Below are positions 38,546 through 52,982 of a DNA stretch of 64,000 nucleotides, in pieces. Where the stretch lies: the NCBI RefSeq assembly GCF_013402815.2, contig NZ_CP058601.1, positions 1,674,001-1,738,000 on the forward strand, written 5' to 3'. Both the position numbers and the translations under genes were made by a program. The DNA comes from Natrinema halophilum. Lineage in GTDB: Archaea; Halobacteriota; Halobacteria; Halobacteriales; Natrialbaceae. The notes beneath the pieces were generated by a model, which made no database searches, was not told the DNA's origin, and was given only the letters and a program-made list of their open reading frames with translations. Numbering within the stretch: position 1 is the first letter of the stretch; the number at the start of each line of letters is the position of its first letter.

Positions 38546-38654
38546 GCGACGATCGCTGTGTTAGGCCACCGAATAGTGGAGGGGACTTATGATACCTTTC
38601 TATAGCAAGGCTTCTGACTTTATTGAGGGGTGTGGTGGGCTTAGCTATACTTGC

Positions 38655-39815
38655 ATGAAGCGTTTCGTCGAGGCTCTGTTCGGGTTAGTTGCGCTGACTG
38701 GTCTCCCGTATTTAATATACCTCGGGGTGTACTACCTTCGGCAGCCGTCCGGGACGCCCGCCGATACGTGGCCGGAGGAACCGTCGGTGAGTATCGTCCT
38801 TCCGACGTACAACGAGGCTTCGATCGTCGAGTCGAAACTCCAGGAACTCGTCGATCTCGACTATCCGATGGAGGAAGTCGAGATCATCGTCGTCGACTCG
38901 AGCGACGACGGAACGGCCGATCTGGTCGAGACGTTCTTCGCTGGGCGCCGGGAACCGGAACTCACGCTAATTCGCGAAAACGGGCGCCGAGGCCTCGCCA
39001 CGGCGTTGAACGAGGCCTACGCCGCCGCGAGCAACGAGGTCGTCGTCAAAACAGACTGCGATTCGCGACTCGCACCCGACGCCGTTCGAAAGGCAACGGC
39101 GAATCTCGCCGATCCGGACGTCTCCGGGGTCACCGGTCGGAACGCAGCGGTAATCGGCGACAGTCAGGTCGAGCGGGGCTATCGCGACATCCAGACGATG
39201 ATTCAGATTCTCGAATCACACATCGACTCGACGCTAATCTTCCACGGTCCGTTTTCGGCGTTCGACCGCGATGCGATCGTTCCGATCGACGAGGACTCGA
39301 TCGCCGACGACACCGAACTCGCGCTCAAAATCCGGCGCAACGGCGGCCGGGTCGTCTTCGATCCAGACATCCACTACAAAGAGGCCGCTCACTCCGCGTT
39401 CAGCAAGCGCCGTCAGCAGAAAGACCGCCGCGCCATGGGACTCCTTCGGTTGCTATGGCGACAGCGCGATGCGCTTGGTCGTCACGGCGCCTACGGCCGC
39501 ATCGTCTTACCGTTTAACTGGTGGTTCATGGTGGTCTCGCCGTGGCTCGTCGCCACTGGCTTGGCGGTAGCAACGATCGGTTCGCTCACCCTTCTGGGGC
39601 CGCTTGGACTTGCGACTCCGGTTGGCATCCTCGCATTCACGGTACTTGGCTCCCGCGATGCCCTCGGTCCGATGCAGCCGTTTTACTCGCTGTTCGATAC
39701 GCAGATCTCACTGCTTCGCGCGAGCATCTCCCTTATTCGGGCTCGAGCCGACGAAGAGGACGGTCACGACGGTACCTGGGAGCCCGATCAAGAACTCCGA
39801 GAGGTGTTACAATGA
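38655..39815 (+). CDS. Membrane-bound family 2 glycosyltransferase
   Basis: This 386-aa protein starts MKRFVEALFGLVALTGLPYLIYLGVYYL, a signal-anchor-like helix. A GT2 domain follows (about residues 43-250): VSIVLPTYNEASIVESKL, then IIVVDSSDDGTADL, TDCDSR as the DxD metal motif, and DDTELALKIRRNGG as the acceptor-side acidic motif. Two to three C-terminal helices (about 280-345) embed it in the membrane. It probably adds sugar to a lipid-linked oligosaccharide. An earlier start at 38589 adds 22 weak residues. It overlaps the next gene by 4 nt (ATGA). Confidence 0.88.
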   Translation: MKRFVEALFGLVALTGLPYLIYLGVYYLRQPSGTPADTWPEEPSVSIVLPTYNEASIVESKLQELVDLDYPMEEVEIIVVDSSDDGTADLVETFFAGRREPELTLIRENGRRGLATALNEAYAAASNEVVVKTDCDSRLAPDAVRKATANLADPDVSGVTGRNAAVIGDSQVERGYRDIQTMIQILESHIDSTLIFHGPFSAFDRDAIVPIDEDSIADDTELALKIRRNGGRVVFDPDIHYKEAAHSAFSKRRQQKDRRAMGLLRLLWRQRDALGRHGAYGRIVLPFNWWFMVVSPWLVATGLAVATIGSLTLLGPLGLATPVGILAFTVLGSRDALGPMQPFYSLFDTQISLLRASISLIRARADEEDGHDGTWEPDQELREVLQ

Positions 39816-41074
39816 CCGACGTCGCGATTCTCCACGACCGCTTTCCCGGCATCGGCGGCGGCGAGGAGTTCGCCATCGAGGCCGCACGCGTCCTCGACGC
39901 GCCAATCTACACGACGTACGTGGCGGGTGGGACCGACATCCCCGCCGACGTCGACGTGATTCCGTTTCAGCAGTCGAAGTACACTTCGCTGCCGTGGCGG
40001 CCCTTACTCGAGTGGAAAAACGAGGGGATGAATCCCCTCGAGACGCTCAACGTGGCGCTGGACATAACCGACGCACACCCGGATCTCGCGCTGTACGACG
40101 TGATCCTCGAGAGCGCGCCGCTGTCGAAATATTACGTTCCCCAGGTCGGTCAACGGGTCGTCCACTACCCGCACAGCCCACCGCGGTGGTTGTACGACCT
40201 CTATCGGGATCGGCTCTCGTCGTTCAAAAAACCGTTCGTCGAGGCCGGTGTCAAGGCCTATGCAAAGGGATGGCGGGCACTAGACAAGGAGGCGAACGAC
40301 TACGTCGACCAGTTCGTCGCGAACAGCGAACTGGTCCGCGACCGCATCCGGCGGTTCTACGGGCGCGACGCGACGGTCGTTTACCCACCGGTCACAGGTA
40401 ACTGGCGCAACGATGGAGACGACGGCTACTTCGTCACCTGGTCACGACTCGCCCCCGAAAAGCGAATCGACCTGGTCGCGAAGGCCTTCGCGGGTCTGGA
40501 CGAACGGCTCGTCATCGCCGGCGACGGGAAACAGCGCGAGCAACTCGAGGAATTCGCGGCTGCCTACGACAACATCGAGGTTCGCGGATACGTCGACGAC
40601 ATCGAATCTCTCGTCGCCCGAGCGACCGCGGTCGTCTACGCACCGAAACAGGAGGATTTCGGCCTCGTCGGAGCAGAAACCATGATGGCCGGGAAACCGT
40701 TGCTCGGCGTGGACGAGGGCTTTACCCGATATCAGGTGGAAGGCGGTCGGACCGGCTTGCTCTTCGAGCCGACCGTCGCGTCGATCCGTGAGACTGTTCG
40801 ACGGTTCGATCCCGCAGACTTCGATCCCGTCGAGATCCGGCAGGCCGCCAGATGCTACGAATACGACTGCTTCGAGGAGAACCTCAAAGCAGTGGTCGCG
40901 GAGACGGCCGCCGCCGACGTCGGTCAGCAGCCGTTGGAACCGGATCGGCCGGGCGTGGATCACCCGCCCGGGACGTCGCTGCAACGCAACCGACGGCCAC
41001 AGTCGACCGACGAACAAATTCGGAACGTCGACGAAACCGTTGAAAACGGATTGGAGGAGGTGACCGATCAGTGA
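39812..41074 (+). CDS. Family 4 glycosyltransferase
   Basis: This 420-aa protein begins MTDVAILHDRFPGIGGGEEFAIEAARVL, the glycine-rich nucleotide-sugar loop. The C-terminal GT4 half holds YFVTWSRLAPEKRIDLVAKAF, GDGKQREQL, and the E-x7-E motif in PKQEDFGLVGAETMMAGKPLLG (about residues 282-303). A C-terminal tail (about 365-420) is low-complexity. Both ends overlap neighbours by 4 nt, so the three glycosyltransferases are translationally coupled. A frame extending back to 39521 is antisense-like over the previous gene and rejected. Confidence 0.9.
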   Translation: MTDVAILHDRFPGIGGGEEFAIEAARVLDAPIYTTYVAGGTDIPADVDVIPFQQSKYTSLPWRPLLEWKNEGMNPLETLNVALDITDAHPDLALYDVILESAPLSKYYVPQVGQRVVHYPHSPPRWLYDLYRDRLSSFKKPFVEAGVKAYAKGWRALDKEANDYVDQFVANSELVRDRIRRFYGRDATVVYPPVTGNWRNDGDDGYFVTWSRLAPEKRIDLVAKAFAGLDERLVIAGDGKQREQLEEFAAAYDNIEVRGYVDDIESLVARATAVVYAPKQEDFGLVGAETMMAGKPLLGVDEGFTRYQVEGGRTGLLFEPTVASIRETVRRFDPADFDPVEIRQAARCYEYDCFEENLKAVVAETAAADVGQQPLEPDRPGVDHPPGTSLQRNRRPQSTDEQIRNVDETVENGLEEVTDQ

Positions 41075-41790
41075 CGGAATCGGCGGCTGGCGCCGTTCTA
41101 CGGCCGGTCGATCATTCGGACCCCGCCGTTTCCGTCGTCGTTCCGACGATTCCCCGGAACGATCACGACGCGGTCGTCGAACACCTCCGCGAGCAGACGG
41201 GTGGTGCATACGAAGTGATCGTCGTGGACGACGCCACGCTCGATATCTGCGAGGCGCGCAATGCGGGTATCCGTGCTGCTCGCGGTGATATCGTGGCGCT
41301 AACCGACGACGATTGTCGGCCGTCGCGGGACTGGCTCGCGGGTATCACTGACGCGTTCGATCGCGACTCCCAACTCGTTTGTCTCGAAGGGGCCGTCCGC
41401 GGAGGCCGGACGTACGACGGCGAGCGGATGTACGTCGGGTGCAATCTCGCGTTCGATCGCGAGGCAGCACTCGCAGCCGGTGGGTTCCGATCGGCATTTG
41501 CCGGCTGGCGCGACGATACCGAATTCGGCTGGCGGATGGAACGGGATGCCGACGGTCGCTGTACGTACCGTGACGACGTGGAGATGTACCACCCGGACCA
41601 GCCTCGAGCGACGATCGACGAGGTGCTCGAAGCGCGCCTCCGACGGGAGTACCCCGAGCGCTACGAGGACGTCATCGTTCCCGACACGCTGTCGGGCCGA
41701 GTGAACGACTGGCTGTGGCGAAAGGGGTTCTGGAACGTCATGGACACGCTTCGGTACGACCTCCCGAGTGTAATCAGATCCGACAGATGA
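41071..41790 (+). CDS. Family 2 glycosyltransferase
   Basis: This 239-aa protein with a GTG start has the GT2 core. The sugar-nucleotide loop reads VSVVVPTIPRNDHDAVVEHL, with IVVDDATLDICEARNAGI and the metal motif ALTDDDCRPSRDWL (about 74-87). The acceptor-binding segment GWRDDTEFGWRMERD lies near residues 148-162. No transmembrane helix is predicted, so it is probably peripheral. It is third in the coupled glycosyltransferase set and 22 nt before the first sulfatase-like gene. Confidence 0.87.
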   Translation: MTESAAGAVLRPVDHSDPAVSVVVPTIPRNDHDAVVEHLREQTGGAYEVIVVDDATLDICEARNAGIRAARGDIVALTDDDCRPSRDWLAGITDAFDRDSQLVCLEGAVRGGRTYDGERMYVGCNLAFDREAALAAGGFRSAFAGWRDDTEFGWRMERDADGRCTYRDDVEMYHPDQPRATIDEVLEARLRREYPERYEDVIVPDTLSGRVNDWLWRKGFWNVMDTLRYDLPSVIRSDR

Positions 41791-41812
41791 TCACGCCGAC
41801 CAATACGAACTC

Positions 41813-43210
41813 ATGACGAACGTCGCGCTCATCGTTCTCGACACGCTTCGGTACGACGCCTTCGAAACGCACTTCGACTGGTTGCCGGGCAGGCGCTTCG
41901 AACACGCCTGGAGTACGAGCCACTGGACGGTCCCGGCACACGTCTCGTTGTTCACCGGCCGATACGCGAGCGAGGTCGGAATCTACGCCGGCGCACAGAC
42001 TTTCGACTGTCCCGATCGCTTGCTCGCGGAACGGTTGCAATCGTCGGGATACACGACGCGGGCGTTTAGCGCGAACCCGAATCTGTCCCCCGTGTTCGAG
42101 GCCGATCGGGGCTTCGACCAGTTCGAACTGAGTTGGCGCCTCGAGCACCACGGCGACGACCTCTTCGACTGGGATGGCTTCATCGCGGAGACGCGCGAGC
42201 AAGGCCCAGAGCGGTATGCCGCCGCGTTGAAGGAGGTTCTCCTTGGCGACAACCGGACCATCCCGTCGCTGAAACACGGTGCGAAGTTGAAGCTTCGGGA
42301 CACGCCTCTCGGCCACCACGTCGAAAACGACGACGACGGCGCGAGCACCGCACTCGAACTGGTCCGCGACACGTCGTTTGGCGACGACGAGTTCCTCTTT
42401 TTGAACCTGATGGAAGCACACTCGCCGTACGATCCGCCCGCGGAGTGGAAGACCGTCGACGTCGACGTCGACGGACTTGCCGCCTCACTCGGCGAGCCGA
42501 CGGACGACCCCACGGATATCGAACGGGCATACGAGGACTGTGTTCGGTACCTCTCACACATCTACGAGCGGATATTTGCGGAGGTTCGTGAGTCGTTCGA
42601 CCTGATCGTCACGGTCAGCGACCACGGCGAACTTCTCGGGGAGCACGGCGGCTGGGAGCACCTCTCGGGTATCTACCCCGAGCTCGCCCACGTACCGTTA
42701 TCCGTGTACGATTCCCGCGCCGAAATCGTCGAGGAGGTCACATACGACGATCACTCGGTAAGCGTCCTCGACGTCCACGAGACGATACTCGCCGCGGCCG
42801 GCCTCACGTCCGGTCCCGACTCCAGAGGGCGCAACCTCGTCGACCGATCGGAACTCGAGTCCGAGTCGGTCTGTCCGGACTGCACGGATGAGGATCGCAG
42901 TGAGGGGAGCCACGATGACGTCCTCGTCGAGTACCACGGCATCCCCGACCGGCACCTCGATGCCCTTCGACGCAAGGGGTTCGAGGATGTTGCACACCGC
43001 AGCCGGTGGCTCGACGGGATCGCGGTGGGTGAGTATTTCGGCTACGAGACGTTCGAGGGATTCGAGGAGTCCGGCGAGTCGCCCTACGAGGACCCGCAAG
43101 CGCGCATTCGTGACGTCGTCGACGCGATCGACCGTCGGACGGACGTCCAGGGTGACGGCGAGATCGACGAATCGGTGATGCGACAGCTCGAAGATCTGGG
43201 ATATGCATGA
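41813..43210 (+). CDS. Sulfatase-like alkaline-phosphatase-superfamily protein (Thr in place of formylglycine Cys)
   Basis: This 465-aa protein follows the sulfatase fold. It starts MTNVALIVLDTLRYDAFE with the metal-binding Asp (residue 10). The nucleophile region reads SHWTVPAHVSLFTGRY, where sulfatases have CxPxR followed by TGR. Thr39 takes the place of the formylglycine Cys, as in LtaS-type phosphotransferases. The C-terminal metal site is SDHGELLGEHGGWEH (about residues 269-283). LDVHETILAAAGL and an end LEDLGYA also match. There is no signal peptide, so it is probably cytoplasmic. A sulfuric-ester hydrolase role is unlikely; transfer or cleavage of a phosphodiester on a glycan precursor is more plausible. 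Confidence 0.83.
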   Translation: MTNVALIVLDTLRYDAFETHFDWLPGRRFEHAWSTSHWTVPAHVSLFTGRYASEVGIYAGAQTFDCPDRLLAERLQSSGYTTRAFSANPNLSPVFEADRGFDQFELSWRLEHHGDDLFDWDGFIAETREQGPERYAAALKEVLLGDNRTIPSLKHGAKLKLRDTPLGHHVENDDDGASTALELVRDTSFGDDEFLFLNLMEAHSPYDPPAEWKTVDVDVDGLAASLGEPTDDPTDIERAYEDCVRYLSHIYERIFAEVRESFDLIVTVSDHGELLGEHGGWEHLSGIYPELAHVPLSVYDSRAEIVEEVTYDDHSVSVLDVHETILAAAGLTSGPDSRGRNLVDRSELESESVCPDCTDEDRSEGSHDDVLVEYHGIPDRHLDALRRKGFEDVAHRSRWLDGIAVGEYFGYETFEGFEESGESPYEDPQARIRDVVDAIDRRTDVQGDGEIDESVMRQLEDLGYA

Positions 43211-43292
43211 GAGGGACCGGCGCACTCGTGATAACTCGACCGAGTCCGTCCGCAACAGGGGCTCGCGGACGGCGCGGGGTGGTGATCGGCTG

Positions 43293-44252
43293 ATGAGTGT
43301 CGTCCACTTCGTCCGGAAACTTCCCGAACGCGGTTACGAGCGGTCGTGGCAGCTCTTCTATCAGTGGATTGCGTTGAAGTTACCGATGCGCGACTTCGCT
43401 GACGTCACCGTCTTCGACCGCGAGTGGGACGTCCTCGTCCTGCTGGACGCCTGCCGGATCGACCTGATGGCCGAGGTCGCCGCGGGGTACGATTGGCTCC
43501 CCGCTCCCGCGGCGGTCGAAGCGGGCGCAATCGACTCGGTCGCAGGCTCGTCGAAGGCCTGGTTGCGTCGGACCTTTTTGGACACTCACGCCGAGGAAGT
43601 CGCAAACACGGCCTACGTAACGGGGAATCCGTTCTCCGCGGTTATCCTCGGCGACGATCATCGCCTGGGACGACTCGACGAGGTGTGGCGGTACGCCTGG
43701 GATGACGATCACGGCTCGGTCCGGCCGGATCCGATTACTGACCGGGCGATCAGCGTCTGCCGCGACGGGGACTTCGACCGGGTCATCGTCCACTATATGC
43801 AACCTCACATACCGTTTCTCGAGCACCCGAACATCCACGCGGCGAATCACGACGATCGCTGGGACGCGCCGGATTCGTTCGTCGATCCGGACCGGCGAGG
43901 GCTGGACGCGTGGCGACGAATCCAGCGAGGCGAACTAGATCGAGACGAAGTATGGGAGGCCTACGCCGACAACCTTCGCCTCGGGCTGGAGTCGGTTGAC
44001 GCGTTGCGCCGGAACGTGAACGGAGCGTTGATCGTTAGCTCCGACCACGGAAACGCCCTCGGCGAACGTGGGGTCTGGGGGCATCCCGATGTCCCCGTCT
44101 CCGGGATCCGGGTAGTTCCCTGGATAGAGCTCGAGGCCCGCGACGAGGGGACGGGAGAGCCAGCGCCCGAACCGGCGGACGAAGAACGCACGGCCGACGT
44201 CGACGTCCAGGAGCGCCTGGCGTCGCTCGGATACACGGAAAAACAATGCTAA
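43293..44252 (+). CDS. Sulfatase-like alkaline-phosphatase-superfamily protein
   Basis: This 319-aa protein has an N-terminal amphipathic or weakly hydrophobic stretch (MSVVHFVRKLPERGYERSW). The metal-binding DVLVLLDACRIDLM follows (about 46-59), then RVIVHYMQPHIPFL and the second metal site SSDHGNALGERGVWGH (about 252-267). A nucleophile motif is not obvious; the segment SVAGSSKAWLRRTF (about 84-97) holds the only candidate serines. It ends LASLGYTEKQC, like its neighbours. A start at 43203, overlapping the previous stop, would add a basic low-complexity tail. The substrate is unknown. Confidence 0.75.
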   Translation: MSVVHFVRKLPERGYERSWQLFYQWIALKLPMRDFADVTVFDREWDVLVLLDACRIDLMAEVAAGYDWLPAPAAVEAGAIDSVAGSSKAWLRRTFLDTHAEEVANTAYVTGNPFSAVILGDDHRLGRLDEVWRYAWDDDHGSVRPDPITDRAISVCRDGDFDRVIVHYMQPHIPFLEHPNIHAANHDDRWDAPDSFVDPDRRGLDAWRRIQRGELDRDEVWEAYADNLRLGLESVDALRRNVNGALIVSSDHGNALGERGVWGHPDVPVSGIRVVPWIELEARDEGTGEPAPEPADEERTADVDVQERLASLGYTEKQC

Positions 44253-44307
44253 TGATACCAGAGATGGAGACCGACGACGAATCGAACCGAGCTGAGGTGA
44301 CCCATCC

Positions 44308-45225
44308 GTGAGCGATCCCACCGTCGCTCTCGGGGTCAAAGTCTTCAACCGATCCGAGAAGCTGAAGACGCTCCTCGAGTCCGTCCCTGCAGACGAGTAC
44401 GACACGGTCTACGTCGCCGACGACGGCAGGACCGAGGAACGCAGCCACCTCTACGAACGGACGTGGCCGTTCGACCTCGAGTTGATCGACCTCCCTTACG
44501 ACGCGGGACTCGGCGTCGGCCGCAACGCGATCGTCGACGAACTCTCCGAAACGTACCTGACGATCGTCGACAGCGACCACGAAGTACCGGCGAACGTAGC
44601 GGTACTCACACAACAACTCGAGAACCGCCCGGAGTTCGGGGGGATTAGCGGTCTGTTGCTGGAGCACGGAACGATCCAGGGCCTGTGTCACGACCTCTAC
44701 GAGAACGGAGACGTACTCGTCCGCGATACGGGCTCGAAGACGTCGGAGACGGTCGCGCAGTACCCGCTCGTCGAATTCGACTTCGTTCCGAACGTCGCGA
44801 CGTTTCGCCGGGCGTGTCTCGAGGACCGAGCCTGGGACGAAAACTACGTGATCGGTCGCGAGCACCTCGATTTCTTCGTTGCCCACCATCACGAGACTGA
44901 CTGGCGGTTCGGCACCTGTCCCGCCGTACTGTTCCCTCACTCTCCCGGCGGTGGGAGCGAGTACGATACCAACCGACACGATCCTGCCAAGCACCTCGCG
45001 AGCAAGTCCTACTTCCGAACGAAGTGGGGATACGACCAGGTGATCGCCCGCGAATTCTGGCTTGGGAATCAGTCCGTTGATACGCCACTTGCAACCTTCA
45101 GCGGCGACATCCCGGTTCCGACGTGGCTTGGGGCGAAAGTAATGAAATTGCGCGATGCGCGATTGCGACTGGCGGCTGCGACCGCGGGCGCGAGCAACCC
45201 GCTCACGGAGGTGATCGGGAGATGA
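44308..45225 (+). CDS. Family 2 glycosyltransferase
   Basis: This 305-aa protein (GTG start) has the GT2 fold with VALGVKVFNRSEKLKTLLESV, VYVADDGRTEERSHLY and the metal-binding motif TIVDSDHEVPANVAVL (about 84-99). GLGVGRNAIVDELSETY precedes the motif. The C-terminal half has EHLDFFVAHHHETDWRFGT (about 189-207), a GT2 acceptor region with adjacent histidines. Its stop overlaps the next start (ATGA at 45222-45225), so it is translationally coupled to the following sulfatase-like gene. Confidence 0.85.
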   Translation: MSDPTVALGVKVFNRSEKLKTLLESVPADEYDTVYVADDGRTEERSHLYERTWPFDLELIDLPYDAGLGVGRNAIVDELSETYLTIVDSDHEVPANVAVLTQQLENRPEFGGISGLLLEHGTIQGLCHDLYENGDVLVRDTGSKTSETVAQYPLVEFDFVPNVATFRRACLEDRAWDENYVIGREHLDFFVAHHHETDWRFGTCPAVLFPHSPGGGSEYDTNRHDPAKHLASKSYFRTKWGYDQVIAREFWLGNQSVDTPLATFSGDIPVPTWLGAKVMKLRDARLRLAAATAGASNPLTEVIGR

Positions 45226-46358
45226 TGACAGTGTCAGAGTCGGTCGAGACGGGGAGAACGACGCTATTGGTCACCGTCGACTCGCTTCGCGCCGATCGGT
45301 TCGACGAGATGGAGCGAACGGTAGAGTTCCTCGAGTCGACCCACCAGCGGGCGTTCGCGACATCGACGGCGACCCTCGGTAGTTTTCCCGCGATCGTCGG
45401 TGGTGAGTACGCGAACGGAGACGGCCTCAACGATGGAACCAGCGTCGCCCGCGCGTTCGATCGCCACAGCGTCGCGGTGACGACGAACCACCTCCTCTCT
45501 GCCGAGTACGGCTACGATGAAGGATTCGACTCGTTCACCTCCCCGAAAGGTGGTGGGGAGACGGTGAAAGAAAAAGGCGCGGCGCTGCTGGAACGTGGCT
45601 CCCTCGCGTACGAGGTGGCCAGTTGGGGCTGGAATCGATATCAGGCGTTTCGAAGCCGCTTCGGCGACATCGAAAAGTCGTTCCGGCCGGCCGACGACGT
45701 GATCGACCAGTTTCTCGAGGCAGTCGAGAGGCGGGATGAGTGGTTCGGTTGGCTGCACTTCATGGAACCGCACCATCCCTACGATCCGGACGGCGCGAAT
45801 CTGAGTCGGGCCGAGGCCCAGCGAGTGACCCGCCGCGTGCTCGCCGGTCGCGGATCGGAAGACGACGAAGAACTCGTCCGCGAACTCTACCGTCTGGAGA
45901 TCGAGGATTTAGACAGAAAACTGGCACGGCTCTGGGAGGCGGTTCCGGACGAAACGCGGGTCGTCTTCTGTGCGGATCACGGCGAACTACTCGGTGAAGG
46001 CGGTCTGTGGGGTCATCCCGGCGAAATGCGGCCGGAACTGCTCCGCGTGCCGTTCGGCACTCGAAACGCACCCGCCCTCGGCGAAGTCGTCTCTCTGATC
46101 GACGTCCCGACGGTCCTCACTGGAGCCGAACACGGTATCGGCACGCTCCAGCGCGAGGTTGCCTTCGCGGCCTACGGCGAGCGGAAAGCGGCGATGAACG
46201 CCGATCACCTCGCGACGAGCGAGGGGAGCGTTCGACTCTCGGACGGGAGGCGGGTAACCGACCCCGCACTCGAGGGGAAACTCGAGCGGTTCGACCCCGC
46301 GTACGTGATCAAAGAGAACGCGCTGCGAGAAGACCTGGAGGATCTCGGATACGCATGA
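45222..46358 (+). CDS. Sulfatase-like alkaline-phosphatase-superfamily protein
   Basis: This 378-aa protein begins MMTVSESVETGRTTLLVTVDSLRADRFDEM, with the first metal-binding Asp (about residue 19). The nucleophile region is ATLGSFPAIVGGEY (about 47-60), where Ser aligns with the formylglycine Cys. A later HFMEPHHPYDP segment (about 180-190) and a second metal site CADHGELLGEGGLWGH (about 248-263) complete the fold. It ends LEDLGYA, as the first member of the group does. No signal peptide or membrane helix is seen. Confidence 0.8.
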   Translation: MMTVSESVETGRTTLLVTVDSLRADRFDEMERTVEFLESTHQRAFATSTATLGSFPAIVGGEYANGDGLNDGTSVARAFDRHSVAVTTNHLLSAEYGYDEGFDSFTSPKGGGETVKEKGAALLERGSLAYEVASWGWNRYQAFRSRFGDIEKSFRPADDVIDQFLEAVERRDEWFGWLHFMEPHHPYDPDGANLSRAEAQRVTRRVLAGRGSEDDEELVRELYRLEIEDLDRKLARLWEAVPDETRVVFCADHGELLGEGGLWGHPGEMRPELLRVPFGTRNAPALGEVVSLIDVPTVLTGAEHGIGTLQREVAFAAYGERKAAMNADHLATSEGSVRLSDGRRVTDPALEGKLERFDPAYVIKENALREDLEDLGYA

Positions 46359-46398
46359 GATACGTTCGTGTTCGACCGATCGACGGAGGGATCGACGA

Positions 46399-47325
46399 AT
46401 GACGATGGTCGTCCTGGCGCTGGATGCGCTCGACGCCGGACTGGTCGAGTACTTCGACCTCGACGCGTTCCGACTCGAGTCGTCCGGCGACCTCGAGACG
46501 TTCGCGCGAACGCAGGACCTCCCGTACACGCCGGAGGTCTGGGCGACGGTCGCGACCGGCTTGCCCCCAGAGAGACACGGCATCACCGCCGGCGGCACGA
46601 GCGAGTGGGACAACCCCGTCCTCGAAGGGCTCTCCCGCGTGTCGGGCCGGTTAGATGAGTCAACTCGAGGGACACTCGGGAAGTTCGTCCGGTCGCAGAC
46701 GGGCGAGCGCGAGCGTATCGGACGGACCGACGCCGAGTCGATGTTCGACGACGACGGTGCGGTCGTCCACAACTGGCCGGGGGTCGCTGACGGGCGGCCG
46801 CTCCAGCGGGCGTGGGATCTGATGAATGCAGTCGCCGAGGGAATGGACCGCAGTACGTTCGAGCGCGAACTCTTCGGTCAGTGCTCGCAGCAATTCGGCT
46901 GGGCACGCGAGATGCTGCACCATCCCGTCTCGATCGCCGGTGTCCACGTGCACGCGCTGGATGCTGCTGGACATGCCTACGCCGACGACGAGGATGCGCT
47001 CCGACACGTATACACCCGGGTTGGGGAATTCGTTACGGAAGTCGAGGACGCGCTCGGGGACGCCGACGACCTCCTGTTGCTCAGCGACCACGGAATGCGC
47101 GTGGAGTTCTATCCGCCCGACGCCGACGAGAATCCGGCGACCCACTCCTGGCGGGCGTACGCCAGTTCAACGACGAACACGCGTCCGGAATCGGTATTCG
47201 ACGTCAGAGAATGGGTCGAATCGCGCGCCCGCCGAGACGAGATCAGCAACTCCAGTTCGGATGCTGACGAGGAGGCGATCGACGTCCCAACCGACCACCT
47301 TCGCGAACTCGGCTACCTCGACTAA
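46399..47325 (+). CDS. Phosphodiesterase-like alkaline-phosphatase-superfamily protein
   Basis: This 308-aa protein resembles type I phosphodiesterase/nucleotide pyrophosphatases. The first metal site is MVVLALDALDAGLVEY (about 3-18). The nucleophile region TPEVWATVATGLPPERHG (about 44-61) has candidate Thr residues. The distal metal-ligand segments are HVHALDAAGHAY (about 185-196) and LLSDHGMRVEF (about 227-237). The C-terminus is LRELGYLD. It is about 40 nt downstream of the preceding sulfatase-like gene. The closely similar protein at 47385-48326 reads in the opposite direction and points at a gene duplication. Confidence 0.8.
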   Translation: MTMVVLALDALDAGLVEYFDLDAFRLESSGDLETFARTQDLPYTPEVWATVATGLPPERHGITAGGTSEWDNPVLEGLSRVSGRLDESTRGTLGKFVRSQTGERERIGRTDAESMFDDDGAVVHNWPGVADGRPLQRAWDLMNAVAEGMDRSTFERELFGQCSQQFGWAREMLHHPVSIAGVHVHALDAAGHAYADDEDALRHVYTRVGEFVTEVEDALGDADDLLLLSDHGMRVEFYPPDADENPATHSWRAYASSTTNTRPESVFDVREWVESRARRDEISNSSSDADEEAIDVPTDHLRELGYLD

Positions 47326-47384
47326 CCGACGGTGTCTCGAAGCGGGGACGACGAACGCAAGACGACCTGTCGATGCCGGTCACA

Positions 47385-48326
47385 TCACTCGAGGTAGCCG
47401 AGGTCTCGGAGCTGCTCTTCTGTCGTGTCCATCACCGCGGGTCGTCGCTCGTTGCCACTTCCGTCTCCGACGTCGCCGGCGTCGACCCGTGCTTCGACCC
47501 ATTCGCGAACCCCAAATACGCTCTCTGGCGGGTCGTCCGCGAGCGTCGTCGACGCGAGAGCACGCCAACTGTGGAAGCCGGGCTCGGTGTCGCCGTCGAT
47601 CCACTCGACTTGCATGCCGTGATCCGACAGCACTAGCAATTCGTCGACCTGTTCGCGGACGGACCCGAGCAGGCGGTCGACCCGCTCGTACACCTCCCGG
47701 AGACGGTCCAGACGGGTCGCGAACGCATGGCCAGCGGCGTCGAGAACGTGCATGTGGACGCCGGCGACGGCGACAGTAGTCTGACCCATTCCCTGGAGCC
47801 AGCCGGCTTCGAGACCGGCGTTGCCATACAATCTCCGCCAGAGTTCGTCGTCGGTGATCTCGCCACTCGACGCGAGGTTGAGCCAGTGCCAGGTCTCGCT
47901 CAGGTGTTCGCCCGGGGTGACGCCGGGCCACCATCGCACGACGTGGCCGTCGGGCTGGAACAGATGCGAGTGCGACGTCTGGCGCAGCGTCATGCCGACG
48001 TCGCCGTCGCCATCGGAATCCCCGCGAAGCCACGTGCCCAGCCTGATGCGCACGTCCTTGGGGAGGATGTAGGGTGTTACCGTACTCGCATACTCGAGTA
48101 CTGGATTGCGCCACTGCTGTTGTTCCCCGGTCGATTCGAGGCCGTGTTCAGTCGGCCCGACACCCGTCGCGGTTGCAGTCCAGACCTCGAGCGTGTTCGG
48201 GTGCTTCCCGGAGTGAGCGAACGTTTCGAGTTCGCGGTGAGTCTCGAGCAGCATGTTCTGACAGTCCCATTCACGGGCGAGGGCGTAGTCGGCAGCGTCG
48301 AGGGCAACGATCCCCAACGTCGTCAT
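47385..48326 (-). CDS. Phosphodiesterase-like alkaline-phosphatase-superfamily protein (paralogue of the 46399 gene)
   Basis: This 313-aa protein starts MTTLGIVALDAADYALARE. Its nucleophile region TLEVWTATATGVGPTEHG matches that of the convergent paralogue position by position. Metal-ligand segments are HMHVLDAAGHAF and VLSDHGMQVEW, again paralogous, and the end is LRDLGYLE. The start at 48326 is favoured because it begins with the same MTxxGIVALDA opening as the paralogue. The two genes are convergent with 59 bp between stops, so an inverted duplication is likely. Confidence 0.8.
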   Translation of the reverse strand: MTTLGIVALDAADYALAREWDCQNMLLETHRELETFAHSGKHPNTLEVWTATATGVGPTEHGLESTGEQQQWRNPVLEYASTVTPYILPKDVRIRLGTWLRGDSDGDGDVGMTLRQTSHSHLFQPDGHVVRWWPGVTPGEHLSETWHWLNLASSGEITDDELWRRLYGNAGLEAGWLQGMGQTTVAVAGVHMHVLDAAGHAFATRLDRLREVYERVDRLLGSVREQVDELLVLSDHGMQVEWIDGDTEPGFHSWRALASTTLADDPPESVFGVREWVEARVDAGDVGDGSGNERRPAVMDTTEEQLRDLGYLE

Positions 48327-48646: not shown

Positions 48647-50089
48647 ATGACTGACGCGACGTCGGTCAGCCTCGGTGGCGAGACGGTGAAGGCGACGGCC
48701 GCGAAGTTTGCGATGGCCGGTATCGGGTTCGCCGGGACCGTCGTCTTCGCGCGGATTCTCGGTCCGACCGGATTCGGCGGGTTCTATCTGCTCTTCTCGC
48801 TGGTGAAACTCGGCGACCGGGCGGTCAATGGATGGGGGACAGCGATCATGAAACGATACTCAGAGGCCGATACCCCAAAGCGGGAGCTGATCGGCGGGCA
48901 ACTGGTGTTCACGGTGGCGTGGTTAGTACTCACGGGCGTTCTCAGCGTTCTCGCGTCACAGTGGTTGGTTTCCTATACTGGGCTTCCCGAAGCGCCCGTG
49001 CTATTCGTCGTCCTGATGGGCGCCGTCACGCTCTACGAGCCTACCGATCGCGTCGTTCAATCGCGAGGACTCGTCGGTGCGTCGATGTGGATCGACACGT
49101 TCCGATCACTGTTGACCTTCCCGCTGCAGCTCGCGTTCGTCCTCCTCGGACTCGGCGCCGCCGGGATGGCCTACGGCCTCGCCGCGGCGACGTTCCTCTC
49201 ACTGCCCGCACTCTGGTACTTCGTGAGGACGAAACCGACCGTCCCGACCGGTGACACGCTCGAGAGCCTCTGGGCGTACGCGAAGTACAGCATCCCGAAC
49301 TCGTTTCTCGGACAGGCCTACGATCGGTTCGACATCCTCCTGCTCGGTTACCTTCTCGCTCCTGCGGCGGCGGGTCAGTACGAGGTCGCACTGAAGCTCA
49401 CGATGCCTGCGACGTTCGTCATGTTGGCTGCACAGAGCATGCTTATGGCCCGCGTCAGCCGGCTCCACAGTCAGGGTGAGAGCGTGAGCACCGACGTGTC
49501 GAATACGCTCGCGTTCACGAGCCTCGTTGCGATCCCGATGTTCTTCGGCGCCGCCGTGATGCCCGAGTTGCTCGTCGTAACCGCCTACGGGGCGGAGTAC
49601 GGCGACGCCGCCATGTTGCTGGTCGGTCTTGCCCTCTATCAGGTAGTAAGTACGCAGAGCGGACCACTCATGAGCACGCTCAGTGGGATCGATCGGCCCG
49701 ACATCAACACGTGGATTTCGGCGGCGACGCTCTCGTTGAACGTCGTCCTCGGCGTCGCGCTGACCCTCACGTACGGTGCGATCGGGGTCGTGATCGCGAC
49801 GGTCGCCGCCGAAACGGTCCAGTACGTTCTCGCAGCCGCCGTCGTCAAGCGGGAGCTGCCGGCGGTCGTGTTGTTCCCCCGGACGCTCGTAGAACAGGTC
49901 GCCGCGGCGGTGTTGATGGCCGTTGTGGTCTTCTTCCTCTTGCGAGCCGTTCCCGTAGACCGGTGGTATCACCTGCTGGCCGTCGTTTCGGCCGGCGCCG
50001 TCGTGTACTCGACGGCGCTACTCACGATCAGCCAGAAGCTTCGGGTGACGATCGAAGGCGTCGTTCGGAGTTCCCGCCTCGAGCTGTAG
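48647..50089 (+). CDS. Oligosaccharide flippase (Wzx-like, MOP superfamily)
   Basis: This 480-aa protein has about 12-14 hydrophobic helices. It begins SLGGETVKATAAKFAMAGIG and has FARILGPTGFGGFYLLFSLVKLGDRAVNGWG (about 36-66), the Wzx first-helix pattern. The C-terminal half holds YGAEYGDAAMLLVGLALYQ and a predicted repeat of the N-half. The family flips lipid-linked oligosaccharides. It is the probable exporter for the product of the glycosyltransferase and sulfatase-like genes just upstream. It is not close in sequence to the 7349 flippase on inspection. Confidence 0.9.
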   Translation: MTDATSVSLGGETVKATAAKFAMAGIGFAGTVVFARILGPTGFGGFYLLFSLVKLGDRAVNGWGTAIMKRYSEADTPKRELIGGQLVFTVAWLVLTGVLSVLASQWLVSYTGLPEAPVLFVVLMGAVTLYEPTDRVVQSRGLVGASMWIDTFRSLLTFPLQLAFVLLGLGAAGMAYGLAAATFLSLPALWYFVRTKPTVPTGDTLESLWAYAKYSIPNSFLGQAYDRFDILLLGYLLAPAAAGQYEVALKLTMPATFVMLAAQSMLMARVSRLHSQGESVSTDVSNTLAFTSLVAIPMFFGAAVMPELLVVTAYGAEYGDAAMLLVGLALYQVVSTQSGPLMSTLSGIDRPDINTWISAATLSLNVVLGVALTLTYGAIGVVIATVAAETVQYVLAAAVVKRELPAVVLFPRTLVEQVAAAVLMAVVVFFLLRAVPVDRWYHLLAVVSAGAVVYSTALLTISQKLRVTIEGVVRSSRLEL

Positions 50090-50150: not shown

Positions 50151-51152
50151 TCAACCCGTTCGTCTCAGAATCAGGTGAACCGAATGCGTGTCGTCGATCT
50201 CCCGTAACTCGTCGAACGAATCCCACGGGAGCTGAACCTCGTACCACATCGGCCCCTCGAGATCCGTCACGGCGACGATCTCCATGTTGGCATCCTCCAG
50301 CGTGCGGAATATCCGTTCCATCGCCTCGTCGTCCAGTCTGGAGCTATGGAGCTCGAAAAAGAGTACCAGCGGCTGGTCAGACTCGAGTACGTCGGACATT
50401 CCTCGAAAGACCTGCGCTTCGTACCCCTCGACGTCCATCCGGACGACGTTGATCGCGTCCGGTTCGATCCCTTTCTCGTCGAGGACGGTAGAGATCGTTT
50501 TCTGCGGGACCGTCACCTGCCGCTCGATGTCGTGTTTTCGGGTAAACGACTCTTCGTCGACGTGTGATTTGTTGCTCAGCGGCAACAGATTGAACGTGAC
50601 CGACCCGTCACTATCCCCGACCGCCACCCGATCGACGTCGATCAGATCGCCGTACCCGTTGCGATCGATCGACTTCGAAAGGATTTCGATGTTTCTCGGA
50701 TCGGGTTCGAACGCCAGTATTCGACCGCTGTCGCCGAGAACGTTGGCCTCCAGCAACGCGTAGTAGCCGATGTTGGCGCCGATTTCCAGTGCGGTTACGG
50801 GCGAGTTGGATTCCGCCGCGAGTCGCTCGAGTTCCTGCTGGTAGAGGCTTGCCGACAGTTCTTCTCGGCCGCCGTACATAATCAACTCCTGAGAGATGCC
50901 AGACATCTTCGGATCGAGAACCATGTCACTGCCGTTGATTTCGCGTACGACGAGCTCGGTGGACCCTCGCCAGGCGAGATAGTTCGTATACGCGTTCCAG
51001 TCGAAAACCCCGGCCGTGAGTCCGCCGAGTAGCGGACCGATCTCTCGCCGGCCGATCCATCGCGCGACCTTGCGCCGGTTGGTCTCGAGCCAGGGCTGGA
51101 TGCTGGTCGGGTTGTCGAAAGCCCGGTTCACTTTCGTAATAATATTTGCCAT
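50151..51152 (-). CDS. FkbM-family methyltransferase
   Basis: This 333-aa protein has the SAM-binding loop TALEIGANIGYYALLEANVL (about residues 119-138), then GRILAFEPDPRNIEIL (about 143-158), and the FkbM motif VVRMDVEGYEAQVFRGM (about 228-244). The family methylates small glycans and other acceptors at oxygen. Its 3' end faces the flippase, so it is the last gene of the glycan locus and probably modifies the exported sugar. The N-terminal 110 residues have no recognised domain. Confidence 0.88.
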   Translation of the reverse strand: MANIITKVNRAFDNPTSIQPWLETNRRKVARWIGRREIGPLLGGLTAGVFDWNAYTNYLAWRGSTELVVREINGSDMVLDPKMSGISQELIMYGGREELSASLYQQELERLAAESNSPVTALEIGANIGYYALLEANVLGDSGRILAFEPDPRNIEILSKSIDRNGYGDLIDVDRVAVGDSDGSVTFNLLPLSNKSHVDEESFTRKHDIERQVTVPQKTISTVLDEKGIEPDAINVVRMDVEGYEAQVFRGMSDVLESDQPLVLFFELHSSRLDDEAMERIFRTLEDANMEIVAVTDLEGPMWYEVQLPWDSFDELREIDDTHSVHLILRRTG

Positions 51153-51938: not shown

Positions 51939-52982
51939 TTACGCGCCGGTGACGGAATCGCGCTCCCAAAATTCGCTGTCCTTCTTCAGTTTCGGGACCC
52001 AGGTGTCGGTTGTCTTCGTAAGCAATGCAACGCGGGAAGCGGGCACGCCCTTGACCTCCGTGAACTCGGGCATGTGCTCACCCACCGACTCCGCGAATTC
52101 GACGACCGCCTCGTGGTCGGGCATCGCGGAGCGGTCGAGTCGCCCCTGCGAGTGGCCGACGTGCATGTACGCTTTCAGTTCGATGAAATCGGGATCGGCC
52201 TGCTGGTAGAAGCCGGCGTACCAGTCGGGGTGGTGCATGTTTTCCCCGTCGACGAGGGTCGTCCGGAGAACGGTTCGGGTTTCGTCCTTGTCGGCGAGGA
52301 CGGCCATCGTCTCGAGGAGGTTCTCCCAGGCGTCGTCTTCCATCGCACCGACGACCTGGTCGAACGTGTGGCGTTCGGGGGCGTCGACGCTGACGTACAG
52401 CTGCGTGGGATCGCACTCCCGGAGGACCTCGGGTCGTGTGCCGTTCGAGACGAGAAACGTGGTGATGTCGCGGTCGTGGAAGGCATCGATGAGTTCGGGG
52501 AGGTAGGGATAGAGCGTCGGCTCGCCGTCCAGCGAGATAGCGACGTGGCGCGGTTCCATCGCCTGATCGAATACCTCGCGGGGAACTTCGTCGTTTCCGC
52601 CAAAGCCCGAAAGGAGCTTTTTTTGCAGTTCGATCGACGCGTCGACGACCGCTTCGGGGTCGTCCCACTCGACGTCGTCCATTTCGTAGGCGTGGCCGTT
52701 GTGATCGCGCCAGCAGAAAACGCAGCGCTCGTTACACCGAACCACGGGCGTCATCTGGATGCAACGGTGTGACTCGATTCCGTAGAAGATGTTCTTGTAG
52801 CACTTGCCCTCGCCGCGCAGGGCGTTCGCCGTCCAGCCGCAGGTCTGGGCCGCCGTATGGTTCTCGCTGTGATAGTCCGGGCTCGAGACCTGTGCCGGCC
52901 CGCCGTCGTCGTCGCCGTCGGAGGCGGCGTCGGCCGTCGTATCGGCGGTTGCGCCATCGGCGGAGTTCGCGGAGTTACTCAT
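51939..52982 (-). CDS. twy1: 4-demethylwyosine synthase (TYW1)
   Basis: This 347-aa radical SAM enzyme makes the tricyclic base of wyosine in tRNA-Phe from N1-methylguanosine and pyruvate. The radical SAM cluster motif is CNERCVFCWRD (CxxxCxxC, about residues 82-92). A second cluster in this family uses further upstream cysteines, and Cys in AAQTCGW and GKCYKN (about 48 and 61) fit. The conserved SLDGEPTLYPYLPEL follows (about 149-163). The first 35 residues are an acidic, disordered haloarchaeal extension. Confidence 0.93.
   Translation of the reverse strand: MSNSANSADGATADTTADAASDGDDDGGPAQVSSPDYHSENHTAAQTCGWTANALRGEGKCYKNIFYGIESHRCIQMTPVVRCNERCVFCWRDHNGHAYEMDDVEWDDPEAVVDASIELQKKLLSGFGGNDEVPREVFDQAMEPRHVAISLDGEPTLYPYLPELIDAFHDRDITTFLVSNGTRPEVLRECDPTQLYVSVDAPERHTFDQVVGAMEDDAWENLLETMAVLADKDETRTVLRTTLVDGENMHHPDWYAGFYQQADPDFIELKAYMHVGHSQGRLDRSAMPDHEAVVEFAESVGEHMPEFTEVKGVPASRVALLTKTTDTWVPKLKKDSEFWERDSVTGA

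Follow-up and report, generated by a model that had tools for sequence, protein, structure and literature searches.

A conserved haloarchaeal N-glycan modification locus with alkaline phosphatase superfamily enzymes, probable members of a newly described class of sulfotransferases, and two phosphodiesterase-type paralogues

In Natrinema halophilum, a stretch of 64,000 nucleotides (the window; coordinates above 64,000 follow the same numbering and fall outside it) contains five genes of the alkaline phosphatase (AP) superfamily, A1 to A5, which lie at 41813-48326 among glycosyltransferases (GTs) and next to a Wzx-type flippase. This is a conserved N-glycan modification locus, in which AP enzymes that probably belong to a newly described class of sulfotransferases are found together with two phosphodiesterase-type paralogues. 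The reading that we lean towards, as somewhat probable, is that an N-glycan is assembled in the cytosol, sulfated by A1-A3 acting as enzymes of the Agl30/Agl31 type, flipped by Wzx and transferred by AglB, with a remodelling role for A4 and A5. AP-fold sulfotransferases have been reported only in 2025, in one organism and with no mechanism, and the present locus shows AP-fold genes in conserved multi-gene clusters with an invariant Ser or Thr in place of formylglycine (FGly). The genes are as follows:

38589..39815, plus strand: GTa, GT2-family glycosyltransferase, first gene of the cluster (Pfam Glycos_transf_2, 7e-21; syntenic)
39809..41074, plus strand: GTb, GT4-family glycosyltransferase, start inferred within the open reading frame 39521-41074 (Pfam Glycos_transf_1, 9e-21)
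41071..41790, plus strand: GTc, GT2-family glycosyltransferase (Pfam Glycos_transf_2, 2e-13)
41813..43210, plus strand: A1, AP-superfamily Thr-type sulfatase-like protein, putative sulfotransferase, 465 aa (Sulfatase PF00884, 3.5e-13)
43293..44252, plus strand: A2, AP-core protein of the Agl30 (VNG1056C)/VNG1063H family, putative sulfotransferase, 319 aa (invariant motifs, AP core in the AlphaFold (AF2) model, Agl30 primer peptides)
44308..45225, plus strand: GTd, GT2-family glycosyltransferase (Pfam Glycos_transf_2, 2e-7)
45222..46358, plus strand: A3, AP-superfamily Ser-type sulfatase-like protein, putative sulfotransferase, 378 aa (PF00884, 2e-8)
46399..47325, plus strand: A4, AP-superfamily protein of the two-metal phosphodiesterase or nucleotide pyrophosphatase/phosphodiesterase (NPP) type, Thr nucleophile, 308 aa (Phosphodiest PF01663, 2.9e-9)
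47385..48326, minus strand: A5, paralogue of A4 (~40% identical) with metal ligands as in A4, 314 aa (PF01663, 1.9e-5)
48647..50089, plus strand: Wzx/MOP-type polysaccharide flippase (Polysacc_synt_3, 7e-19)
50151..51152, minus strand: FkbM-family methyltransferase, which adjoins the cluster in only some syntenic copies (TIGR01444, 7e-26)

A1-A4 and the four GTs (spanning 38589-45225) form an operon-like series on the plus strand, in which neighbouring genes overlap or are separated by short gaps, and A2 has an alternative start at an upstream ATG at 43203. A preliminary description of this DNA had placed here five AP-superfamily genes with metal sites, four GTs, a flippase at 48647 and LGY-type protein ends; all of these are borne out by the open reading frames, the invariant motifs, Pfam and the sequences themselves, and to them can be added the strand, which had not been given and which is minus for A5.

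The closest proteins with tested function are the sulfotransferases Agl30 (VNG1056C, membrane) and Agl31 (VNG1057C, soluble) of Halobacterium, AP-superfamily products of the aglB cluster that were described in 2025 as needed for N-glycan sulfation (PMC11980604). In this system, deletion of Agl30/31 lowers sulfation, while their expression confers N-glycan sulfation on Haloferax volcanii, and O-sulfates located by nuclear magnetic resonance (NMR) in Halobacterium are cited within the same paper (PMC11980604); in Hfx. volcanii, Agl7 has been shown to be required for sulfation (PMC3871713). Agl30 and Agl31 were compared with the window through peptides translated from the published primers (PMC11980604) and through the related Halobacterium locus L048. 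The VNG1056C peptides (DFGHLDM, RAITDRTV and the end HLEDLGYL) fit the A2 family, as illustrated by the own-genome A2 paralogue at 93769, which reads WFQHLDEVW..PPRPVTDRAI; VNG1057C ends in LEELGYT, and VNG1063H carries VHYFQPH and ends in KELGYIE. The motif HYxQPH is found in 13 of 1611 sampled genes, every one of them coding for an A2-type AP protein with an LGY tail. On this partial sequence A2 can be assigned to the Agl30 family; the Agl30 start primer itself matched none of 13 Halobacterium genomes and nothing in the genome contig collection. The two systems are alike in AP fold, glycan-cluster setting, LGY tail, structural matches to S1 sulfatases and the adjacent pair of a soluble and an A2-type gene, a pair that recurs in Halobacterium (L048) and in Haloplanus (L163, near AglB). 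They differ in that Agl30 is membrane-bound whereas A2 has no clear transmembrane helix, and in that the AP genes of the window number five, with A3 and the phosphodiesterase-type A4 and A5 among them.

At the position of the sulfatase Cys there is no Cys in any of A1-A5; the residue is T39 in A1 (WTVPAH), S87 in A2, Ser in A3 (STATLGSFPAI), T44 in A4 and Thr in A5, which agrees with the Thr and Ser previously described for the first and third genes. In the A2 family this residue is Ser or Thr in every member examined, although its local context differs. The metal-site motifs (an N-terminal Asp, [SA]DHG and a later His) are invariant inside each of the five families. In the A1 family D10, T39, H43, H203, D270, H271, H283 and the terminal L462-G463-Y464 are invariant; in the A2 family LDxCRxD, HxxQPH, DHG, GHP and LGY; among nine A3 sequences STATxGSFPAI, DHGELLGE and LGY are invariant or nearly so; and the A4 ligands D9, T44, D188, H192, D230, H231 and H249 are invariant in seven sequences. 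No signal peptide or transmembrane helix is clear in A1-A5, where the highest 19-residue hydropathy is at most 1.5 in all five, as the preliminary description had supposed for the signal peptide.

Fold comparisons place A1 closest to sulfatases. The AlphaFold model of A1 (predicted local distance difference test, pLDDT, 80.5; predicted template modelling score, pTM, 0.85) finds its top matches among S1 carbohydrate sulfatases, namely SpAS2 (Z 33.3), BT1596 (5g2t/5g2u, Z 32.8) and 6hhm (Z 32.4), the latter two being those given for the Halobacterium proteins (PMC11980604). Neither LtaS nor EptA figures in the top 50 fold matches for A1, which leaves room for a lower-ranking likeness, and in profile comparison A1 is nearer to choline sulfatase (3e-15) than to EptA (7e-7) or LtaS2 (0.04). 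The A2 model is of moderate quality (pLDDT 66, pTM 0.70) and shows an AP core (best Z 12.5, to EptA), in which EptA, MCR and LtaS tie with sulfatases among the best matches (Z 11-12.5), so that EptA and sulfatase kinship are not separated. In Pfam, no family scores above cut-off for A2 (PF00884 E=0.37). A1-A3 are best read as AP-fold, Ser/Thr-type, cytosolic sulfotransferases. They share with the S1 sulfatases (PF00884) the fold (Z 33 for A1), the N-terminal Asp and the DHG motif, and differ from them in having Thr or Ser for the FGly Cys and His (A1) or Ile (A3) for Arg, in the absence from A1-A5 of a GKWH-type second motif or a signal peptide, and in that no gene for an FGly-generating enzyme (FGE) stands beside the cluster. 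An identity of A1-A5 as classical FGly sulfatases, already doubted in the preliminary description, is ruled out by nucleophile (no Cys) and motifs (no GKWH). In place of the C/S-x-P/A-x-R motif for FGly conversion, A1 has T39-V-P-A-H and A3 has G-S-F-P-A-I, and the Ser or Thr of A2, A4 and A5 stands in other contexts. Two Cys-type sulfatases of N. halophilum do have GKWH and have no LGY tail, and one of them adjoins an FGE gene (L074:996-4001, G000:C1 ~201500) and serves as a contrast case.

A4 and A5 are of a different type. Both score above the PF01663 cut-off of 23 bits (37.4 and 24.9 bits, respectively), and in sequence they retain the whole two-metal ligand set of the NPPs (Asp, Thr, Asp-His, Asp-His, His). 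They are best read as two-metal phosphodiesterase-type enzymes with a possible phosphate-transfer role. Unlike NPPs, they are short, have no signal peptide, are LGY-tailed and lie inside a glycan cluster, and solved NPPs are distant (best E ~0.001).

The gene order GT-GT-GT-A1-A2-GT-A3-A4-A5(reverse)-Wzx is kept in nine other haloarchaeal genomes at ~67-86% identity per gene, which argues that the cluster is not a chance assembly; some of these copies are without A2 or A3, or have these genes missed by the simple gene caller used. Diverged versions (L064, L066 and L067) place a GT-A1-(A3)-(A4)-Wzx block directly beside AglB, identified by Pfam STT3/AglB domains, and similar arrangements with AglB adjacent or near are found in Haloplanus (L163) and Halarchaeum (L087). 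In N. halophilum itself, AglB (68538-71486, L049) follows the cluster at a distance of ~20 kb downstream. Given this linkage to AglB in both the diverged and the own-genome clusters, the product is very probably an N-glycan assembled on lipid. The genome-context survey of A1 homologues and the diverged copies beside AglB, together with the Wzx gene in the locus, thus uphold the earlier proposal that a lipid-linked glycan is decorated before export. A scan for A1 kin across genome contigs gave, among the best matches listed, three close haloarchaeal relatives, the remainder being distant and mostly bacterial Thr-type sulfatase-like proteins. The N. halophilum genome holds 14 AP genes in 92 kb, all LGY-ended; nine of these AP-superfamily LGY genes lie beyond the cluster at 72180-134254 (L049-L052), among sugar-modification genes, flippases and AglB.

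All members of the A1-A5 families end in L..LGY within their last residues, and the distribution of this tail supports, with some caution, a sulfate chemistry. Against a background of 800 kb of unselected Halobacterium contig (696 called genes), LGY ends were found twice, one belonging to a membrane helix and the other to an A2-type AP protein. Outside the AP proteins, the tail was met elsewhere in the sampled regions on APS (adenosine 5'-phosphosulfate) kinases, Pfam sulfotransferases (L168, L173), a CopG-like protein and one membrane helix; all eight APS kinases that are paired with ATP sulfurylase carry the tail, which on the APS kinase lies past the end of the alignment to solved APS kinases. 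In the A1 model, the tail is a low-confidence short helix on a low-confidence linker. C-terminal L..LGY is probably a docking tag common to sulfate-handling enzymes, and its presence on sulfate-activating enzymes argues for a sulfate rather than a phosphodiester reading of the AP proteins. The tail would offer a cheap marker for sulfate-handling proteins and a possible handle to pull out their partner.

In the mechanism that we propose, the enzymes of the locus would build an N-glycan in the cytosol on a lipid, probably dolichol phosphate. In A1-A3, a metal-activated Thr or Ser at the place of FGly would first accept the sulfuryl group of an activated donor and then transfer it to a hydroxyl of the sugar; LtaS/EptA work by such a double displacement, with a phospho-group where sulfate would be moved here. 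A4 and A5 would probably edit or remodel the donor or a lipid-phosphate-linked intermediate, a reaction that is not confidently predicted. The sulfated glycan would then be flipped by Wzx and handed to AglB. In this picture the genes, their synteny, the active-site residues, the A1 and A2 folds, the spread of the tail and the linkage to AglB are observed, and the reaction, its donor, the sequence of steps and the role of the tail are proposed.

In N. halophilum, 3'-phosphoadenosine 5'-phosphosulfate (PAPS) is a plausible donor, as genes for an ATP sulfurylase (76165-77316), an APS kinase (~77313-77936) and a PAPS sulfotransferase (79253-80470) lie near AglB, ~28-33 kb downstream; in this stretch (L049:12165-16470, i.e. 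76165-80470), the APS kinase has an added C-terminal LGY and the sulfotransferase is of PAPS type. Several observations weigh against the sulfation reading. The A2 family is found in 271 of 301 Halobacteria genomes, while APS kinase (TIGR00455 over cut-off) is present in 28/391, ATP sulfurylase (PF01747) in 11/381 and CysD in 0/391, and at most 20 of the 271 A2-family genomes have apsK. Among 14 other genomes (A1-type carriers and two Halobacterium), none has an ATP sulfurylase and none save G118 a true APS kinase, and in control searches neither apsK nor CysD nor ATP sulfurylase was matched in Hfx. volcanii, the host in which Agl30/31 were active. The mass values quoted for the modified glycan (m/z 1224.47 to 1264.45, 2+; PMC11980604) correspond to +79.96 Da, a shift that, to the decimals given, fits sulfate (79.957) and phosphate (79.966) alike. 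VNG1063H, a member of the A2 family, has no detected role in N-glycan sulfation (PMC11980604), so that family membership alone is no proof of reaction. The identity of A1 to the Halobacterium soluble AP proteins compared, which did not include Agl30/31 themselves, is no higher than 26-28% (26% to L048_4976), and the VNG1057C peptides are too short to compare. Finally, many bacterial Thr-type sulfatase-like proteins encoded outside glycan loci have the LGY tail as well; it was seen on 26 of 43 hits examined, with haloarchaeal proteins counted in.

Two possibilities follow: there is a donor or a route of activation that has escaped recognition, or many of these genomes transfer a group other than sulfate. 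AP-fold genes of this kind occur far more widely than the canonical PAPS genes, and the haloarchaeal sulfuryl donor becomes a testable question. A broader proposal, which we put forward tentatively, is that haloarchaea sulfate their surface glycans by Ser/Thr AP-fold enzymes without PAPS from the known pathway, with another donor or activation route serving an enzyme family that is found in ~90% of Halobacteria, and with LGY bringing proteins of unrelated folds (AP proteins, APS kinase and P-loop sulfotransferase) to one shared partner. A further type of APS kinase in haloarchaea, ~285 aa long and fused to a cytidylyltransferase-like domain (PF01467, Pfam-checked in L168), was seen at L168:9822-10670, with similar ones in L166-L172, L174, L178, L179, L181, L183 and L184; its neighbours include a sulfotransferase of 407 aa (PF13469) and a gene of the YqcI/YcgG type and no ATP sulfurylase. 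This arrangement is possibly a compact PAPS module.

Among other explanations, a variant of the sulfation reading, in which A1-A3 add sulfate while A4/A5 transfer or cleave a phosphodiester and the glycan bears both groups, is rather unlikely and still the one that survives best. It fits the division between sulfatase-like A1-A3 (PF00884 or AP core) and A4/A5 (PF01663 with NPP ligands), as well as L067, where A4 accompanies A1 and both A2 and A3 are absent; however, the LGY tail is on A4/A5 too, and no phosphodiester was found for haloarchaeal N-glycans in the literature examined. Less probable again is the teichoic-acid-like chemistry of the preliminary description, where the AP proteins would move a phospho-group (phosphoglycerol or sugar-phosphate) onto a lipid-linked glycan in the manner of LtaS/EptA with Thr. 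A1 does share with LtaS/EptA/MCR the AP fold and, as do A4 and A5, a Thr nucleophile, and its T39 with D10, D270 and H271 matches the nucleophile and metal ligands of LtaS/EptA; the lack of FGly, the level standing of EptA, MCR and LtaS with sulfatases in the A2 model, the full two-metal site of A4/A5 and the ambiguous mass shift also suit it, and the donor gap in most carriers keeps phospho-transfer alive at low probability. Against this, the relatives that have been tested are described as sulfotransferases, with NMR-located O-sulfates cited for Halobacterium, the tail is common to APS kinases and sulfotransferases, A1 is nearer to S1 sulfatases than to LtaS/EptA in fold and profile, and LtaS/EptA/MCR are anchored by transmembrane segments, with their catalytic domains on the outside, where A1-A5 have no transmembrane segment. 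Addition of sulfate is therefore more likely than teichoic-acid-like phosphate chains; a phosphate or phosphodiester role is not supported for A1-A3 and stays possible for A4/A5, and the structure comparison foreseen in the preliminary description, run for A1 and A2, was sulfatase-like for the former and tied for the latter. Least probable is a set of editing hydrolases, phosphatases or sulfatases of the cytosol that would trim glycan intermediates bearing the wrong decoration or return them for reuse, since, although AP folds are mostly hydrolases, Thr-type nucleophiles are normal for AP-superfamily phosphoesterases and A4/A5 resemble NPPs, five different AP genes stand within one glycan assembly cluster and the lowering of sulfation on Agl30/31 deletion, with its gain on expression in another species, is the opposite of hydrolysis.

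Relatives of these genes are also seen in viral contigs, where three weak A2 relatives and no A4 relative were found; on two IMG/VR contigs, A2-type AP genes (28-29% identical) lie at L186:4953-5696 and L187:4983-5789, and one of the two is LGY-ended. No match to anti-phage defence models was found. A Radical-SAM-like protein with an RCNERCVFCW motif (51939-52982, minus strand) adjoins the cluster in most syntenic genomes and is probably unrelated to the glycan.

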